Assembly: GCA_018883425.1 (NCBI GenBank)
Contig: VFQY01000012.1
Location: 1-40,190 of the forward strand
DNA length: 40,190 nt
DNA from: Candidatus Omnitrophota bacterium
GTDB taxonomy: Bacteria > Omnitrophota > Omnitrophia > Omnitrophales > Aquincolibacteriaceae
Reading direction: 5' to 3'
How positions within the stretch are numbered: the first letter of the stretch is position 1; the number at the start of each line of letters is the position of its first letter. The translations under genes were made by a program, and so were the position numbers. This document shows positions 18,869-40,190 of this stretch, piece after piece. Under the pieces are notes generated by a model. That model was not told the DNA's origin. It saw nothing but the letters and a program-made list of their open reading frames with translations, and did no database searches.

Positions 18869-21800
18869 TTAGCGGCCCTGACGATACGCGGTGACAGCAT
18901 TCAGGATCGCCTGATCTCCAGTGCTCACCGTTCGGTTACCGTCAAAATCGCACCGAGCGTCGTACATCCGCCGCATGACGAGCGTCGATAGCCGATTTCT
19001 GGCCGCGGTGATTTCATCGCGCGTCAACAAAAGATCATTGTTAATATCCGCAAGGAAATAGGCCCGAAGGTTGGCCCACTCCATCGGAGAAAGGTTGAAC
19101 TTCCACATATCCACATTCGATCTCAGTCCCGTATGCGTTCCCGTAAGCACCGCTAGATCCGCGGAATCAACGCGCCCGTCTCCGTTAAAATCCAGCTTAG
19201 GCACATATTTACTGTCCCGCACAGCTTCCCTGATGAGCGTCATCGACGAGCGGAGCTCAAAGATGATTTCCTGAGCTGTGAGAGCTCCATCCTGATTGCT
19301 GTCCAGCAAGACCCTCATTTTCAATCTCATCAGCTCATCCCGAGACATGGGCAGAGCCATTTGCCCGCTGCTGATCAGCGAATTCTTCATGTTGATAAGC
19401 AGCAGTGCATCTGCGGGTGCTACGGTACCGTCTCCATTGAGATCCATATTCAAATTCGCAGTACCGCCGTTCAGAGCCGTGATGATACGTTCTGCTGCTC
19501 GGCTGAGCCCAGGCGAAACCTCCTCCGCGGTTAAATTCATGTCCCCGTTGGTATCCACCAGCGAAAACACACGAAGCTGCTGGCGCACTTCAGAGGAAAG
19601 CGGAAACGCCGCATAGCTCGCCGGGGCCGCCCGCCTCAGGTCTGAGATGATTTGCAAATCGGCGCCGGTGAGAGCTCCGTCGCCGTTGAGATCAAGCTCG
19701 TTTCTGTAGAGAGTTCCAGGCGTCAAAGCAGATCGAATCTCCTCCTCCAACGATTTCAATCCAATCACCTCACTCGCCGTAAGAGCATAGTCCTTGTTCA
19801 TATCCAGCCGGACAAAAAGTCTCAAGGATATGAAGGCTTCGCGCCGCAGGACAGAATTGGCCGAGTAGGGAGTGTTTTCGGCAAGCCGTGTGTAGAGAGC
19901 ACCCAGCGCCGCAGAATCATCAGCATTAGTCGAGCCGTCACGATTCAGATCGCCCGACGGGAGCTTTTGATCAATTCGGGATTTAATGACCCCAAGCATT
20001 TCAAAAACCTCGCCCGCATCGAGCTGCGCGTCGGAGTTGCGATCCAAAGTCTTCAGGAACTGGGGAAGTTCCATATCGGCAATCCAGAATGGGGAAAGAT
20101 TAACAGTTTCGGAGGTTCTATCCGTGAGAACGATCGCTTTTCCTTCCATGAATAAAACGACTTGATAAGCGCCCGGAACTCTGTACTCGAGATTCCCGTT
20201 GATCGGTCGCACAATGACTCCTGATGAAGCAGCATCGGCTCCAAGGTAAGGCAAAAACGCTACACTTCCATCCGGAGACACATCGACAAGGTCGACTTGC
20301 ACCGTTGCCGCAGGGCTATCGGTGCTAACGCTTCCCAATTGGGTTTTTACTCCTGTTGTCAAATTTATAACATTGACGACCCTAGAGGCCCCATTTGACT
20401 CCGTTCCAATCGCATAATTCGGATTTGACGGAGCGACCCTGTAGCCCACAGGAATTGGGGTCTTCGCTCTCTGAAATGTGGAGAGATCAACGGTCTCTGT
20501 CGTGAGATTCGTTCTAACAGCAGCGTTTCCTTCTCGGAATGAAACGCTTTCATAGGCGCCATCAATGCTGTACTCACGAATACCGCCGATCTCTCGAATG
20601 GTGACGCTCGACGACGCACCGCCAAATCCAGAGTAAGTCAAAACCGCCGCTGTTCCATTCGGTGACACATCAATCACCGATACAGCCGCCCGGTTGGTCG
20701 TAACGCTTCCCAATTCGGTTTTTACTCCTGTTGTCAAATTTACAGCAAATGCTCTCATGGAGGGGCCGTTAAGCTCCGTTCCAATCGCATAATTCGGATT
20801 TGACGGAGCGACCCTGTAGCCATTCGGAACAGAAATGGCGGCCGCTGTGACCACGGGAGGTTGAGGGTTGACAACGGGCGTCTGCGAGGCGCTCGACTTG
20901 ATTCGCACATTAACTTCACTGCCGGAAATGTTGTAGCCGGATGCCCCGAAAGCAATGCTGACGACCTTGGTGACATCGATCGAATAGGTTAAGTTCTTCA
21001 CCGGGAAGGAAATCAGCTGCTCAGCATTGCTGACTTCAGGAAGTGCCGCATAAGCCTTCTTGCCCAATGCATCCGTCACGGTCATCACCAACGGCTGTTT
21101 CACGCCTCCTTCGAATGCATTCACCTGCCCGGAAATTCCAAAGACGAGATGGCTCATAGCGCTGAGATCAACCGGGGCACTGTAACTCAAGATCCCATCT
21201 CCTGAGTACCCAAACTGCTTGGTCGCAAGGCCTATCTTCACCACATCTCCGTTTTTCGTAATTTCTCCTGCATTGTCATTGGGTGAGGTTTTTATCGATA
21301 GCCCATTGGGCACGGGAAGATTAACTAGCCCTTTGTTTGCGTCGGTCAAGGCAGCTTTTCCGACTTCAGCAAGGTTTACTTTCGTGGGCAGCCAAACCTC
21401 GATCAAGCCGGGTCTGAAAACGTTCTCAGCGATAAAGAAAATCGATTTGATCCTGTCGCGCACGGAGGCCGGTATTGCCGTCAGCGGAATCCGGTAGAAA
21501 TTCTCGCTGTTCTCCCGAACGCCCGTCAGATAATGAACGTAGGTTTCACCCGTATCGGTTTTCAGCTCCAGCTTGATGCGCTCTGCGCTGGCCTTAAGCC
21601 CCAAAATGAGTTCGTCTCCGGAAATAAGGTCCTTGCTTCCGGGAGTGCGGAAGGAGTAACCGCCTCCGGCCCATCCTTCATAAGGGGCAGGATAAGCGAT
21701 CTTGAAACCCGAGGTGGTCTTTTCCGAGTAGAGCTGAGCCGGGAAGGACAGCAGATCCACGGTCAGAGAATCCTGATTCAGGACAGTAGCAAGCCCTCTA

Positions 21801-22504
21801 CCGGCCGATGCCGGGGCAGACGCCGGGGAGTAAACTTTATCCCTCATGGATATTTCCAAAACCCCTGAGCGGAAATCAGCCTCGACAACAAAGCCGACTT
21901 CGGTAATCCGGCTCATATCGATCCCGGTAAACACAGTGGTTGAAACGGAAAAAACTTTTTCGGCGGCCGCCTGAATGCCGTCAATATAAGCTGCGGCACG
22001 CTTTCCTTGAACGTCCGTAAGCTCGAGCTTGATTCGGGAAGCGTCACCTTTGAGACCGAACGTCAAATTCGAGTAGCCGCTCAAGCTGATGGACTCCTTC
22101 GCGGGTGTTCCCCAATCATCATAGACAAGAACACCTGCCGACCATCCCCTGTTGACCTTCGTATCAAAAATAAATCCGTATCCTGTGTGAGTTTTCTTTA
22201 AGCCTTCAGTCACAGTGCCGTTATCCAAAGCGAATAATCTTCTCGGTTCTGGCAATTCGGTTTTTTCAGGCGTCGGATTCTGAAGCGGTGATCCGCTCAA
22301 AAAATCCTCGTTCGGCTGGGTTGTCTGAACCTGCGCCCCGGAGGAACTTTCAGTTTGACTTGGGGACACCTGCGGGGTCTGCTGATAAAGCGGATTCAAG
22401 AGAGTGTCCGCGTGAGCGATTCGGCTCCCCGGCAAAATCTGGAGCGTGCAAAGCAAAAAAGAAAGCAATCTGGAAAAATTTGCCGCTTGATTCGGTTTTT
22501 TCAT
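18869..22504 (-). CDS. Large secreted protein with beta-sandwich modules, duplicated domain and ten calcium-binding loops
   Basis: The 1211-residue protein has a signal peptide (FSRLLSFLLCTLQILPGSRI, cleavage after AHA) and an ATG at 22504 with GAGGTG upstream. Residues about 85-240, 240-390 and 390-545 look like three related beta-sandwich modules (for example SLSGYSNLTFGLKGDASRIK, DELILGLKASAERIKLELK and SAMSHLVFGISGQ), reminiscent of carbohydrate-binding folds. Residues about 555-805 are two copies of a 125-residue unit starting GYRVAPSNPNYAIGTE. Residues about 815-1211 hold five ~79-residue repeats, each with two loops of the DxNxD type, such as DLNGDGALTGAD, DTNGDMNLTAEE and DSNQDGALTAQE. 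These are EF-hand/dockerin-like and predict calcium binding. No catalytic domain is recognised. It is probably a surface or extracellular binding protein. Confidence 0.9.
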   Translation of the reverse strand: MKKPNQAANFSRLLSFLLCTLQILPGSRIAHADTLLNPLYQQTPQVSPSQTESSSGAQVQTTQPNEDFLSGSPLQNPTPEKTELPEPRRLFALDNGTVTEGLKKTHTGYGFIFDTKVNRGWSAGVLVYDDWGTPAKESISLSGYSNLTFGLKGDASRIKLELTDVQGKRAAAYIDGIQAAAEKVFSVSTTVFTGIDMSRITEVGFVVEADFRSGVLEISMRDKVYSPASAPASAGRGLATVLNQDSLTVDLLSFPAQLYSEKTTSGFKIAYPAPYEGWAGGGYSFRTPGSKDLISGDELILGLKASAERIKLELKTDTGETYVHYLTGVRENSENFYRIPLTAIPASVRDRIKSIFFIAENVFRPGLIEVWLPTKVNLAEVGKAALTDANKGLVNLPVPNGLSIKTSPNDNAGEITKNGDVVKIGLATKQFGYSGDGILSYSAPVDLSAMSHLVFGISGQVNAFEGGVKQPLVMTVTDALGKKAYAALPEVSNAEQLISFPVKNLTYSIDVTKVVSIAFGASGYNISGSEVNVRIKSSASQTPVVNPQPPVVTAAAISVPNGYRVAPSNPNYAIGTELNGPSMRAFAVNLTTGVKTELGSVTTNRAAVSVIDVSPNGTAAVLTYSGFGGASSSVTIREIGGIREYSIDGAYESVSFREGNAAVRTNLTTETVDLSTFQRAKTPIPVGYRVAPSNPNYAIGTESNGASRVVNVINLTTGVKTQLGSVSTDSPAATVQVDLVDVSPDGSVAFLPYLGADAASSGVIVRPINGNLEYRVPGAYQVVLFMEGKAIVLTDRTSETVNLSPFWIADMELPQFLKTLDRNSDAQLDAGEVFEMLGVIKSRIDQKLPSGDLNRDGSTNADDSAALGALYTRLAENTPYSANSVLRREAFISLRLFVRLDMNKDYALTASEVIGLKSLEEEIRSALTPGTLYRNELDLNGDGALTGADLQIISDLRRAAPASYAAFPLSSEVRQQLRVFSLVDTNGDMNLTAEEVSPGLSRAAERIITALNGGTANLNMDLNGDGTVAPADALLLINMKNSLISSGQMALPMSRDELMRLKMRVLLDSNQDGALTAQEIIFELRSSMTLIREAVRDSKYVPKLDFNGDGRVDSADLAVLTGTHTGLRSNVDMWKFNLSPMEWANLRAYFLADINNDLLLTRDEITAARNRLSTLVMRRMYDARCDFDGNRTVSTGDQAILNAVTAYRQGR
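20326..20821 (-). repeat. Recent 375-bp tandem duplication inside the large secreted protein gene
   Basis: Two DNA blocks recur at exactly 375 bases. 20326-20367 matches 20701-20742 with one mismatch in 42, and 20399-20446 matches 20774-20821 with none in 48. They encode the GYRVAPSNPNYAIGTE and LTTGVKT(E/Q)LGS segments of neighbouring 125-residue units. The DNA between the blocks has diverged much more. Confidence 0.9.
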
Positions 22505-35751: not shown

Positions 35752-38700
35752 ATGACTCCTCAATCTCAGCCTTGGATGCGAACCGCCGCTTTTTTTACGG
35801 CCCTATCCCTGCTCGTCAATACCGAGCCGGTTCAGGCGTCTGTGCTTCAGGCAACGCCCGCCGCGCCCGCGTTCAGCATCCCGGCAGAACTAGGATTCCT
35901 GCAGGAATCTTTCGACGGACCTTCGGGCAAAACGATTTACTTTATCCAGGATGCCCACAGTTCACTTGAGGCCCAAAACCACATCGCCGCTATCATCCGC
36001 CGGCTCACGGAGAAGCATGCCGTTCAAACCGTCTTTGAGGAGGGCTATGAAGGCCCTGTTCCCACAGAGCGTTTTTTTGGGTTCATTCGAAACGCCCCGC
36101 TCCGGCTGAAAGTTTCGTCCTTTTTCCTCGACAAACTGCGCATCGGAGGCGCCGAGTTCGCCCACATCAACCGCACCCGTGAATTCAAACTGATCGGGGC
36201 CGACGACCTTCAGACTTACCGTAAAAATATCGCCGCCTACCGCAAAGCTTCAAAGACGGCGGCACGCGCCGATGAAGAGCTGAGCCAAATTCTCCAGGAA
36301 CTGCGCTCGCTCGCGGCCCGGCGTTTTTCTCAAGCCCTCCGGGATTGGCTCGAGGCACGATCGCGCCTTGAACGCCGGCAACTTGATCTGGCGGACTTTC
36401 TCGGCCGCAGCTGGAAACTGCTCGAAGAGCACGGGCTGAAGAACAAGGAATCGGAAAACTTTCCTTTTCTCGCCTCGCTCCTCAGACCCTCGGATAAAAA
36501 AAATCCGCCGCTCGACACGGCTGAGGTCTTTCGGGAGATTTACGCTCTCGACAAAAAAATTTCCGCCCTGTTGCTCAGCTCTGAAAAAGACCGGCGTCTT
36601 TTTGAGGCTCTGGAAGCCTTCACCCTGCTCAAACGCCTCAACCGTTTAGAAGTTTCCGCGGAAGAATATGCGGCGGCCCGCGGCGTTCTCGAAAATATCA
36701 GCACACGGGAAACGGCAGACTTCATCGCCCGGGAAAGCTCTAAATCGGTGGTTTTTTCGAACACCTGGGAAGAAGCTTTGATTCATGCCTCGGCCTTTTA
36801 CACGCTTGCGGGTCAGCGCGACGAGGCCGTCGAAAGAACGCTTCGCAATTTCCTCAAGCAGACCGGAGAACAAGAGGCCGCGCTGGTTTTCGGGGGGTTC
36901 CACAAGCAGTCTCTGCTCGCCGTCATGCGCCGTCTGGGGTTCTCCGTCCGCGTCATCAGCCCGGCCATTTCAAGCCCTGATCCTCGCCACGAGAAGTACT
37001 ATCACGAACTGATGTCGCGAGGAAGCCATCCTTATGAACGAGCGCTGATGCCCGCGCTTTCCCAGGCGGCCCGGGCGGCCCGTCAGGCTTCCCTTTACGT
37101 CGAGACGGGAGGGGGGGGCAGGCCGTGGGTACTAGCCGTTTTGAAAATCTTGCTGCAAGAGCCGGAGATTCCCCTGTCACAGCTGGCAAGAATGCTGGAA
37201 AAAAATCCCCGCCGAGTTCTTCCGAGCACCGCGCTTCGATCCGAATTGAGAAACACCGCCTCTTACGATACGGCCCCGCCGAGAGAGTTCCGGATTTCAC
37301 TTCCTGTCGGCGGAAAAATCCGCATCTTCGGTTTTGATACCCAAACAGCTGTTCTTGCCGAGGTGATGAGCCTCCGGCAAAACGCAACCCGGCGCGCGAG
37401 AAGCGGCAGGCTCAAAGAGCCGCGCCTCGAAACAGAAATTCGAATTTCGGCGCCGCCCGAAATCCTCATGATCGAAGGCCGCGACTGGCTGGATTTTTTA
37501 GAAACTTACGAAAGCAGATCCGGTACTCTCGAGGCACAGGGACACTGGAATAAGACCGCTCTTAGAGAACTTTATGAGACGCTCAGACTCAGAACTGAGA
37601 AGCGTTTTATGAACAAAATCTTCCGGATGCCCCAAGACGCAAAAATTCATCTTTTTGATCTGAAGACCCGGCGGCATGCCGAACTCGAAATCCTCGGCCT
37701 GCAAAAAAATCCCGAGACTGCGGATCTTAAGATCATCCCGGATTCATCCAGCATGCGTTCCAACCTTTTCAGGGTCGAAACGCTCTACCTTCCCCCTTCG
37801 GTCACGCCCTCAGCGGTGCGCTCCGAGCTTCGCTCCCGTGAAACGCAGCCGGAGGGATTCCCTTCTCAAGATCTCACAGAGGGAGAAAAAAGACTCATCG
37901 CCGAATCCGAGACGCGGGGCTCCACCCGCGAAACCAGCCGACGGAATAAGATTTGGCTCTTTGGGGAAGTGGAAATGCAGCAGGCGCTTTTTGATTTCAA
38001 AGGCACCGCGTCGGAAAACTCCGTGATACCGCCCTCCCTCTACCGCGACAAGAAAATTCTGATCATGCCGGGCTACGGTAACCTGCCTTTTCTTTTCAAA
38101 CTGCTGGGGGCACGCGAGGTCGTGGCCAGGGATCTTGATCCCGCAACTATCGCCTGGCAGAAATTAAAAAATAAAACAGCACGGCTCAATCATCCGTACT
38201 GGCTTTTCCTCACAGAAACAAGCTCCAGTATGAGGCGGACAACTATGCGGACAACCTGGCTGGATACTTTGGATACCCCGGTTCAACCTGAAGAATCCCT
38301 GCCCGGCATGCGTTTTGAGGTCAGCGATATCCTTCAACCGTCTCAGAACGAGGAAAAGTTCGATCTCATCGTGTCACCGTATCTTTTCTCGGTCACGGGA
38401 GGTCTTGAAACAATAGCCGAATGCGATAAGGCTCTGGCAAATTTACGCCGAGCTCTCGCCCCCGGCGGAAAAATCATCATCACGCCCGGTAGCGCTGATG
38501 ACCTCGACGACTTCGACCCCGGAACAGCACTCAGGGTTTATCAACTTTCGCTCTGGATTGACAGCAAGGCCAACGAAGGCTGGCGTGTCACCTACAGCCG
38601 TCGACAGACTTTCCATAGTTTTTTTGGGGGCAGACAGGTCCCCGCGTCCTTTGCTTTTCTTTCCCCCCCCGACACGGATCAGGCCGAGACAATCGCGTCT

Positions 38701-40190
38701 AAGCGCGACGCGCTGGCAAAATTCTTCGAAAGCCTTAGCCTCGTCCTCCCTGCATTTCCCGGGGATTTCAGTTACACGCATGCCGTCCGCTATCAAATTA
38801 AGAAGCCCTGGGAAATCGCGGAACATTTGAGTTTATTAGGCTATGCTGCCTATCCTGGCCTGGTTCAAAAATTCATCGATCAAGGCTTTATGATGGGTGA
38901 TGAAGAAACGCTGACCGCCGGAGGCAAACAGCTTTATTCCCGGACTCTATGGATTGATCCCGAGAATCCTAACCTGCGTTTCGTTAAACTCCTCGAACTC
39001 ATCGGCCGCGGCTCGAACGCGGTCGAAGGCGTCACGGATGAGCAAGACACAGCGGCCGCCGTTGCGCAAGCCGCTGAACTTGCGGGCGGAGCGAGCCGGG
39101 AACCTGGCCCTCAGATCCTCGCCGTCGAAAATCTCCATGCATGGAAAAACTTGGCTTCTGCGGCCGCCCAAATGGATGAGCGCCGGCGCTCGGAATTACG
39201 CTCAAACCCTCCCGGGGCCTCGTCAGAGAAGAGAACCCCTCAACTTCCCGAGGATGAACTTCGGCACATGCGCTCCAGCCTTAGGCATTACCTCAGGCGT
39301 CAGCTCGGAGAACGCGGCCGTTCGATAGATCCCAAGCGTTACGAATTCATCTCAGACATTCTTCCTTACCGCATCCTGGCTGCCAAGGACGCAGCCGGGA
39401 AAATTCTCGGTTTCGCCTTCGGCAAGAAAGGCAACCGCCACATGCATTGGATCGAGACCCAGGAGGGCGAAGAGCCTGACGGATTCATTTACGAAAAGAA
39501 TGAGCACGGCCTGCGGATCACGACCTACAAAAAGCAAGGAGACAGCCATTATATCGAGGACGTCCTCGTGCTCGGCCGATTTGGAGACACTTACCGTCTC
39601 AAGATCGAGGAATCCGCTGGCCAAACGATGAACCAATCGGTCGAATATCACAACTGGATGCCCAGCTACATGCTGACCGAGCCGAGGGAAGTCAGGGTGC
39701 TTTCCGCCGAGCTTGGGTCGCAGCTATTCGCCGGCATCTCAAAATTTGTTCAGCCACACTCGCGTCTCGTTCTCGCGCCCGGTATGGACCCCGAATCGCG
39801 CATGACATACTGGCCCAGCAGCCAGGGGGGGGACGTTCTCTCCCGTGAGAGAGTCTTCGGCGGGCTGGACCACGAGGGGGTCGATCTGGCGCATCTGCGC
39901 TTCAGAGATGGGAAACAAAAGCTCTTAGGCGCCGGCACCCAGATTCCTTCCCTCGTGAATGAAAGGGGCGTCATCCAATGGACGTTTGAGGACAATGTCC
40001 GCTCAACAGCTATTATTTTGAGCAGCATCACCTTACCTGTAGGTTCAAAAACCTATTTCATTCCAAGAAACCCCGACGACGTCGCGAAGATCACTTTCGG
40101 CCCGAACGGCCAACCTCAGTTTCCTGAAGGAGTCGAATACGACACCGAGAGTATCCAGGGTGAAATATACCGCGTGGCCTTCGTCTACAC
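35752..40190 (+). CDS. Giant secreted multidomain protein (TraB/ChaN-like, methyltransferase-like, M23-like), partial
   Basis: The frame stays open from ATG 35752 to the window edge (at least 1479 codons; I translated it in full). A signal peptide (RTAAFFTALSLLVNTEPVQA) begins it. Residues about 60-400 resemble the TraB/ChaN/PrgY-like fold: IYFIQDAHSSLEAQ, VFEEGYEGP (96-104), KLIGADDLQTY and LVFGGFHKQSLLAVMRRLGF (histidine 384). Residues about 765-930 look like a Rossmann methyltransferase: KILIMPGYGNLPFLFKLLGA, EVVARDLDP, EKFDLIVSPYLFSVTGGL and RRALAPGGKIIITPGS. Residues about 1360 to the edge look like an M23 peptidase start, with LDHEGVDLAHLRF (H1374, D1378, the HxxxD zinc pattern) and AGTQIPSLV. 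The motif RSELR occurs at 496, 690 and 1146 between the domains. Omnitrophota encode such giants; the function is unknown and domain calls are by eye. Confidence 0.85.
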   Translation, partial: MTPQSQPWMRTAAFFTALSLLVNTEPVQASVLQATPAAPAFSIPAELGFLQESFDGPSGKTIYFIQDAHSSLEAQNHIAAIIRRLTEKHAVQTVFEEGYEGPVPTERFFGFIRNAPLRLKVSSFFLDKLRIGGAEFAHINRTREFKLIGADDLQTYRKNIAAYRKASKTAARADEELSQILQELRSLAARRFSQALRDWLEARSRLERRQLDLADFLGRSWKLLEEHGLKNKESENFPFLASLLRPSDKKNPPLDTAEVFREIYALDKKISALLLSSEKDRRLFEALEAFTLLKRLNRLEVSAEEYAAARGVLENISTRETADFIARESSKSVVFSNTWEEALIHASAFYTLAGQRDEAVERTLRNFLKQTGEQEAALVFGGFHKQSLLAVMRRLGFSVRVISPAISSPDPRHEKYYHELMSRGSHPYERALMPALSQAARAARQASLYVETGGGGRPWVLAVLKILLQEPEIPLSQLARMLEKNPRRVLPSTALRSELRNTASYDTAPPREFRISLPVGGKIRIFGFDTQTAVLAEVMSLRQNATRRARSGRLKEPRLETEIRISAPPEILMIEGRDWLDFLETYESRSGTLEAQGHWNKTALRELYETLRLRTEKRFMNKIFRMPQDAKIHLFDLKTRRHAELEILGLQKNPETADLKIIPDSSSMRSNLFRVETLYLPPSVTPSAVRSELRSRETQPEGFPSQDLTEGEKRLIAESETRGSTRETSRRNKIWLFGEVEMQQALFDFKGTASENSVIPPSLYRDKKILIMPGYGNLPFLFKLLGAREVVARDLDPATIAWQKLKNKTARLNHPYWLFLTETSSSMRRTTMRTTWLDTLDTPVQPEESLPGMRFEVSDILQPSQNEEKFDLIVSPYLFSVTGGLETIAECDKALANLRRALAPGGKIIITPGSADDLDDFDPGTALRVYQLSLWIDSKANEGWRVTYSRRQTFHSFFGGRQVPASFAFLSPPDTDQAETIASKRDALAKFFESLSLVLPAFPGDFSYTHAVRYQIKKPWEIAEHLSLLGYAAYPGLVQKFIDQGFMMGDEETLTAGGKQLYSRTLWIDPENPNLRFVKLLELIGRGSNAVEGVTDEQDTAAAVAQAAELAGGASREPGPQILAVENLHAWKNLASAAAQMDERRRSELRSNPPGASSEKRTPQLPEDELRHMRSSLRHYLRRQLGERGRSIDPKRYEFISDILPYRILAAKDAAGKILGFAFGKKGNRHMHWIETQEGEEPDGFIYEKNEHGLRITTYKKQGDSHYIEDVLVLGRFGDTYRLKIEESAGQTMNQSVEYHNWMPSYMLTEPREVRVLSAELGSQLFAGISKFVQPHSRLVLAPGMDPESRMTYWPSSQGGDVLSRERVFGGLDHEGVDLAHLRFRDGKQKLLGAGTQIPSLVNERGVIQWTFEDNVRSTAIILSSITLPVGSKTYFIPRNPDDVAKITFGPNGQPQFPEGVEYDTESIQGEIYRVAFVY

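Follow-up and report, generated by a model that had tools for sequence, protein, structure and literature searches.

The pentapeptide RSELR, which occurs three times in one giant open reading frame of an Omnitrophota bacterium, represents a real and strongly selected motif that is borne by linkers, is spelled in genome-specific dialects and is most likely a polyprotein processing site. RSELR itself would be the spelling used in this genome for a processing site of the form [R/K]-[S/A/P]-E-[L/V/M/A/T]-R in the giant, predicted secreted proteins of the Omnitrophota, and, judging from the sequence patterns described below, we put at about two in three the probability that it is cut by an endoprotease after the final Arg, dividing a secreted polyprotein.

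The three copies lie towards the end of the window, that is, the whole stretch of 40,190 nucleotides analysed here (contig VFQY01000012.1 of assembly GCA_018883425.1), in an ORF whose features are collected in Table 1. The sequence-only reading had reported their coordinates and the use of different codons in each; both observations are borne out, with all three copies in a single frame of ORF 35752-40188 and three different spellings. A hydrophobic stretch ahead of the N-terminal domain is shared by 58 of 66 giants. The whole ORF, used as query in a scan of named genomes, gave no match. Elsewhere in the window, a 1211-aa protein on the minus strand (18872-22504) has a signal-peptide-like start and 0.17% Cys, and carries neither the N-terminal domain nor the motif.

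Table 1. Features of the giant ORF at the end of the window (positions are those of the window; cuts and fold assignments are predictions).
Feature	Position	Strand	Basis or remark
Giant secreted (predicted) ORF	35752..40188	+	1479 aa seen; open at window and contig end (40190 bases)
Signal-peptide-like N-terminus, aa 1-30	35752..35841	+	Hydrophobic helix, then small residues; helix 7-22 in model
N-terminal domain, aa 40-425, Ere/ChaN/TIKI-like fold	35869..37026	+	Profile, model, structural matches
Conserved His69 (QDAH)	35956..35958	+	Invariant, 23/23 alignment rows
Conserved Glu97, 28 residues past His69	36040..36042	+	Invariant, 23/23 rows
Conserved His384 (GGFH)	36901..36903	+	At least 90% of rows
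Linker after N-terminal domain	37027..37311	+	pLDDT <60 over most of length
RSELR copy 1, aa 496; predicted cut C-terminal to last Arg	37237..37251	+	Codons CGA TCC GAA TTG AGA
Unit between RSELR copies 1 and 2, 189 aa	37252..37818	+	Unassigned; ORF translation, Pfam scan
RSELR copy 2, aa 690	37819..37833	+	Codons CGC TCC GAG CTT CGC
Unit between RSELR copies 2 and 3, 451 aa	37834..39186	+	ORF translation
Methyltransferase-like stretch (Methyltransf_11/31) in unit between copies 2 and 3	38296..38493	+	Methyltransf_11 21.8 bits vs cut-off 21.2
RSELR copy 3, aa 1146	39187..39201	+	Codons CGC TCG GAA TTA CGC
Unit past RSELR copy 3, ended by contig end	39202..40188	+	ORF translation

The pattern is far larger than these three copies. 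The protein set of the source genome comprised the window and 40 further stretches (41 sources), the latter picked for matches to the N-terminal domain or to the pattern, which inflates the density of the motif but leaves the contrast among protein classes unaffected. In its 52 ORFs of at least 700 aa, RSELR was found 71 times where composition predicts 0.32, so that the chance frequency named in advance as a refutation does not apply; it is the commonest over-represented 5-mer in the giants of this genome (G000). At the DNA level, a degenerate RSELR pattern gave 102 matches in the source genome, against 26 for a reversed-pattern control. The motif is concentrated in giants: 66 copies fall in 33 ORFs of at least 1000 aa and 11 in the remaining 366 ORFs, eight of the nine shorter carriers are ended by a contig or stretch end, and RSELR is absent from all 239 ordinary ORFs of 150-700 aa that are complete within the source-genome stretches. 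Across 27 genomes, RSELR occurs 225 times in ORFs of at least 700 aa and the 59 remaining permutations of its letters 103 times together, an excess of about 130-fold over the mean of these arrangements. Composition, shuffle, reversed-pattern and anagram controls all reject a chance origin.

A survey of 60 stretches from 26 relatives, in which 5-mers were counted without a preset motif, recovered the degenerate form [R/K]-[S/A/P]-E-[L/V/M/A/T]-R with a spelling that depends on the genome. At or near the top of the counts were RSELR in G011, G015, G028 and G032, RSEMR in G010 and G012, RSEVR in G004, G013 and G016, RSETR in G006 and G007, RAEVR in G021, G025, G030 and G038, and RAELR, KSELR and RPELR in G005. 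The mutual information between genome and the letter at position 4 is 0.93 bits, compared with 0.19 after permutation (maximum 0.25). The class [RK][SAPNTG]E[LMVAITS]R has 566 sites in ORFs of at least 700 aa in the 27 genomes, a class chosen after seeing the data, so that the test rests on shuffles and not on the class. The sequence-only reading had proposed comparing motif counts in related genomes with shuffled sequences, and in 22 of the 27 genomes the count exceeds the maximum of 60 shuffles of 40-aa blocks, about 8- to 50-fold; it is not above that maximum in G002, G018, G026, G035 and G036. When one position at a time was freed, Glu at position 3 was found 489 times (17.6 expected) and Arg at position 5 likewise 489 times (15.3 expected). 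Position 1 is Arg with some Lys, position 2 is small or Pro, and position 4 is mostly uncharged, charged residues being nearly excluded. A role of the Ser as nucleophile or modification site is rejected as a general rule, position 2 being Ala or Pro at many sites.

The motif is scarce or absent in some giants that have the N-terminal domain: it is found once in 10,242 aa in G036 and once in 5,367 aa in G035, few times in G018 and G002, and not at all in 3,968 aa of giants in G026. It was likewise not found in giants with this domain in O. fodinae AAA011-A17, OFTM55, CSSed165, JZ-4.180 and ModMarine92, a named-genome set that overlaps the 27 genomes and is not independent of them. In such giants the N-terminal domain would do something else or use another site. 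Giants of G036 (L059-L061) that have the N-terminal domain but no linker motif show a strongly repeated sequence in its place.

As for the placement of the motif along the chain, the linker setting that had been proposed for RSELR is upheld: copy 1 lies at pLDDT <50, and order-promoting residues make up 26.7% of RSELR flanks, compared with 32.2% at random positions (p=4e-22) and 30.9% around anagrams. Occurrence inside folded domains, which would have spoken against this setting, was not seen, since none of 63 motifs falls within Pfam stretches (5.4 expected; 26 stretches, 9 giants) and 13 of 350 fall within BLAST-defined domains in giants sharing domains with other giants (62.4 expected). The distance from the N-terminal domain to the first motif is at most 300 aa in 57 of 60 giants, where random placement would give 49%; three further giants have no motif past this domain. 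Counting back from the C-terminus, the last motif is reached after 150-400 aa in 24 of 26 giants, compared with 29% for random positions. Some detected domains fit tightly between two motifs, as the HAD domain 1876-2084 in the unit 1857-2142 and the receiver domain 1024-1090 in the unit 986-1129. There are also units in which two unlike Pfam domains have no motif between them, namely CofD and NUDIX (L076), metallophosphatase and GAPDH (L018), and HAD and PfkB (L075), and among 475 neighbouring motif pairs 72 are only 8-60 aa apart, flanking a short stretch. The ends of shared domains (HSPs) are not peaked near motifs, 7.1% lying within 25 aa (8.9% at random) and more than half beyond 300 aa, and among HSP-spanning cases the partner has a motif within 40 aa in 19 of 157; the 2078 HSP ends are, we think, dominated by a few repetitive proteins, and as they stand these distances do not support the linker reading.

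The residues next to the motif give an indirect sign of a cut. Pro occupies the residue after the final Arg at 4 of 564 sites, where 30.2 are expected (p=3e-9). It is also low at the second residue past the motif (19), with enrichment two residues ahead of the motif (70) and four residues past it (59). Since Pro directly past a scissile bond blocks most endoproteases, this gap suggests that the chain is cut after the final Arg. The same residue is enriched in Thr, Met, Ser and Ala, and the run from Ser or Thr to an acidic residue past the motif also has the look of a helix start. The start of a helix past the motif could explain part of this pattern; taken alone, however, it would lead one to expect Pro one residue later, and that residue is Pro-low as well. 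Met is enriched 2.2-fold directly past the motif (20 sites, of 565), a possible start-codon relic of fused genes.

That the copies are held as protein is also visible in the DNA. The 15-mers encoding them are mostly distinct (68 of 77 in G000, 71 of 85 in G015) and their synonymous sites are broadly mixed, although some codons, such as TCC and CGC in G015, are over-used. Of 410 codons for the motif Ser, 384 are TCN and not AGY, compared with 641 of 942 in the flanks and 66% overall, a bias suggesting that the copies share descent, or arose via Ala or Pro codons (an S/A/P/T path), and were then kept as protein. Judging from these codons, not every copy arose independently. The earlier statement that RSELR does not stem from a recent DNA duplication thus stands for the synonymous sites and is qualified by the Ser codon class: recent duplication is rejected for most copies by their distinct 15-mers and is kept as partial ancestry. 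In L014, motifs at aa 599, 976 and 1353 delimit a motif-to-motif tandem duplication of two units of exactly 377 aa, with a near-identical start past RSELR. The earlier claim of selection on the linker peptide is strongly supported by the enrichment, the order-poor flanks and the distinct 15-mers.

The chain in which the motif is found begins, past its signal-peptide-like start, with a domain for which the AlphaFold model has a pLDDT of 80.9. Its best structural match is EreC (Foldseek E 0.004, Z 9.1), followed by ChaN (Z 8.4), HopBA1 (8.0), Bcr135 (7.8) and VvRRSP (7.3), so that members of the Ere/ChaN/TIKI superfamily head the match list, with middling Z-scores. The domain shares with the TIKI/erythromycin esterase/ChaN superfamily the predicted fold, a core of parallel beta-sheet with helices on its flanks, and a His-Glu pair, whose spacing of 28 is found in 74 of 80 ORFs and which would be part of a His-(28)-Glu...His signature; it differs in being fused to a predicted polyprotein and in having Asp where the second Glu would stand, as Asp lies two residues ahead of the His in 69 of 78 domains (RRSP has 2His/2Glu). 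The GGFH His may correspond to the second His of RRSP. In the portion of PMC6254334 that concerns these proteins, the same spacing of 28 is seen in His-85/Glu-113 of Bcr135 and His-3902/Glu-3930 of VvRRSP, the superfamily is termed TIKI, the His-Glu pair is proposed to be essential for hydrolysis and RRSP is described as an endopeptidase. A profile of the N-terminal domain gave 34 matches in the source genome, where the longest open frame concerned has 4,380 aa, 1 to 48 matches in each of the 39 genomes of the family and order, in frames up to 23,964 aa, and matches in 68 of 116 genomes drawn from the phylum; in named genomes, all 49 confirmed loci are Omnitrophota.

The sequence-only reading had also pointed to a co-occurring protease. 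Six protease families were searched for in the 39 genomes, many of which are incomplete, so that absences are soft, and none is present in every motif-rich genome. Caspase-like C14 was found in 3, trypsin in 23 (with no match in motif-rich G011, G013 and G003 among others), subtilase in 11 (not in G000) and S41 in 17 (not in G005, G015 and G011); C11 (clostripain) was found in none, its controls having worked, and C25 (gingipain-type) in none, its positive control being also silent. The N-terminal domain, present in 39 of 39 genomes, including those where the motif is absent, is the sole candidate tested that is found in every motif-rich genome. It is the leading candidate on account of its predicted fold and of the putative His-(28)-Glu...His signature of a superfamily that includes endopeptidases, and we propose it only tentatively, as a possible rather than a probable identity of the protease. 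RRSP cleaves a sequence other than this motif.

Past the first linker, several distinct Pfam units share one open frame. Of 13 giants scanned over all or some of their length, 4 gave no Pfam family. The units found comprise CheR, PrmA and other methyltransferases, sigma-70 regions 2/3/4, HAD, histidine phosphatase (His_Phos), receiver, CofD, NUDIX, PfkB, HEAT, metallophosphatase, GAPDH (GAPDH C), PPDK_N with PEP-utilizers, and PAS, and from their families they look cytosolic. Sigma-70 regions 2, 3 and 4 occur inside a giant bearing a signal peptide (L020:9886-17037, minus strand). Cys makes up 0.04% of residues in giants, compared with 1.0% in ordinary ORFs, a scarcity that would be expected for exported proteins; 26 of 66 giants have no Cys past aa 60, and ORF 35752-40188 has a single one, at aa 891. 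In L018:4338-16919, two of the three Cys in 4,194 aa lie within FCSGASCTTN of the GAPDH unit, in which SCTTN, which we take to be the GAPDH active-site motif, is kept. Exclusion of Cys with retention of a catalytic Cys argues for units that are exported and active, as we infer. At the other end of the chain, the sequence terminates in -[S/A/T]A in 26 of 29 complete giants (L009-L108; for example L016 at 14023, L018 at 16919 and L072 at 14101), compared with 10 of 332 ordinary complete ORFs, and giants that lack the linker motif have the ending too (G026, G036). It may be a C-terminal sorting or protease-recognition signal; the AlphaFold model of the C-terminal unit is poor (pLDDT 59.8).

In the reading that we favour, the exported chain would consist of one signal peptide, the Ere/ChaN/TIKI-like N-terminal domain, separate enzyme-like units in series and, at its end, a unit of about 300 aa that terminates in -[S/A/T]A, and an endoprotease would cut past the final Arg of each motif, freeing the N-terminal domain, the cargo units and the C-terminal unit. 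Of the roles first considered for RSELR, a protease site fits best the Pro gap, the fixed Glu/Arg core, the small next residue, the dialects and the presence of the motif between most detected units, whereas anchoring or sorting predicts neither the Pro gap nor the placement. Short charged linear motifs commonly bind partners, and a scaffold, chaperone, coat or secretion partner might recognise [R/K]xE[L/V/M]R in every linker and leave the chain uncut, keeping the giant in place or steering its export. Enrichment, linker position and dialects would all fit such docking; yet it does not lead one to expect a Pro gap confined to the next residue, nor that almost every giant should have a motif just past its N-terminal domain and another ahead of its C-terminal unit, and we regard it as unlikely. 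Cutting by a prey, host or community protease, with cargo activated only after delivery, is in our estimation improbable. It is favoured by the finding that none of the native protease families tested follows the motif in its distribution, and by the discussion of the giants as symbiosis or predation traits (in the part of PMC10066038 that deals with them), but dialects that differ by genome within one bacterial family better fit a co-inherited protease.

Two further explanations dispense with recognition in trans or with function altogether. The motif might be a favoured helix cap at the start of domains, consistent with its position ahead of domains and with Ser, Thr or Ala and then Asp, Glu or Pro past it, but caps are not expected to be genome-specific, and neither a fixed Arg, Glu and Arg with other letters varying by genome, nor the large excess over same-letter arrangements, nor the lack of RSELR in ordinary ORFs agrees with it, which makes it very improbable. 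Hardest to credit is a functionless scar of gene fusion or recombination, in which linkers were copied along with domains; the Ser codon memory, the L014 duplication and the Met past the motif speak for it, and it is largely refuted by the distinct 15-mers, in which five residues are fixed and the flanks are not, as expected from purifying selection. An extension of the processing reading, which we regard as rather unlikely in its entirety, would be that of self-dividing megapolyproteins: secreted chains, nearly free of Cys, that would run to tens of thousands of residues at most, each with its own N-terminal TIKI-like protease and a genome-specific [R/K]xE[L/V/M/A/T]R code, whose formerly cytosolic enzymes and regulators (sigma-70 regions, GAPDH still bearing its catalytic Cys, PPDK, methyltransferases and receiver domains) would be freed for use outside or in a partner cell, protease and site drifting together into species dialects.

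MARTX toxins are processed by their own cysteine protease domain; neither this domain nor RTX repeats were found in the scan of 13 giants, some of them covered only in part. The MARTX effector VvRRSP belongs to the same fold superfamily as the predicted fold of the Omnitrophota N-terminal domain, and MARTX toxins resemble the giants, whose division is here predicted, in being giant secreted multi-unit chains divided by proteolysis (PMC6254334, in its account of these toxins). The closest parallel among the publications considered is that of the dinoflagellate light-harvesting polyproteins, in which, according to the relevant portion of PMC3480386, an SPLR site lies between units and cleavage is stated to occur at Arg. 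Several units per chain and a short Arg-ending motif between units are common to both; the dinoflagellate chains are eukaryotic, plastid and made of closely related repeats, whereas those of the Omnitrophota are bacterial, giant and made of unlike units, with a motif of five residues in genome dialects. Giant ORFs of the same phylum and the same kind have been reported among the largest proteins, with 39,678 aa in V. archaeovorus and roles poorly understood (PMC10066038). In the main text of that paper the words polyprotein, protease and linker do not occur, and the motif, its dialects, the Cys exclusion and the C-terminal tail are not described in the portion that deals with these ORFs. No account of the motif was found in a literature search whose scope excluded most subscription papers and all preprints, matches to RSELR and the dialect words being unrelated and Omnitrophota with polyprotein giving none.

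If the giants are polyproteins, what has been called a giant protein would be only a precursor. The motif would then mark the boundaries of the mature proteins, so that each unit could be expressed, solved and assayed singly, and the dialects would form a natural series of protease-substrate pairs. The Omnitrophota giants would, if this is true, represent in bacteria what polyproteins are in viruses and dinoflagellates, at a much greater size.
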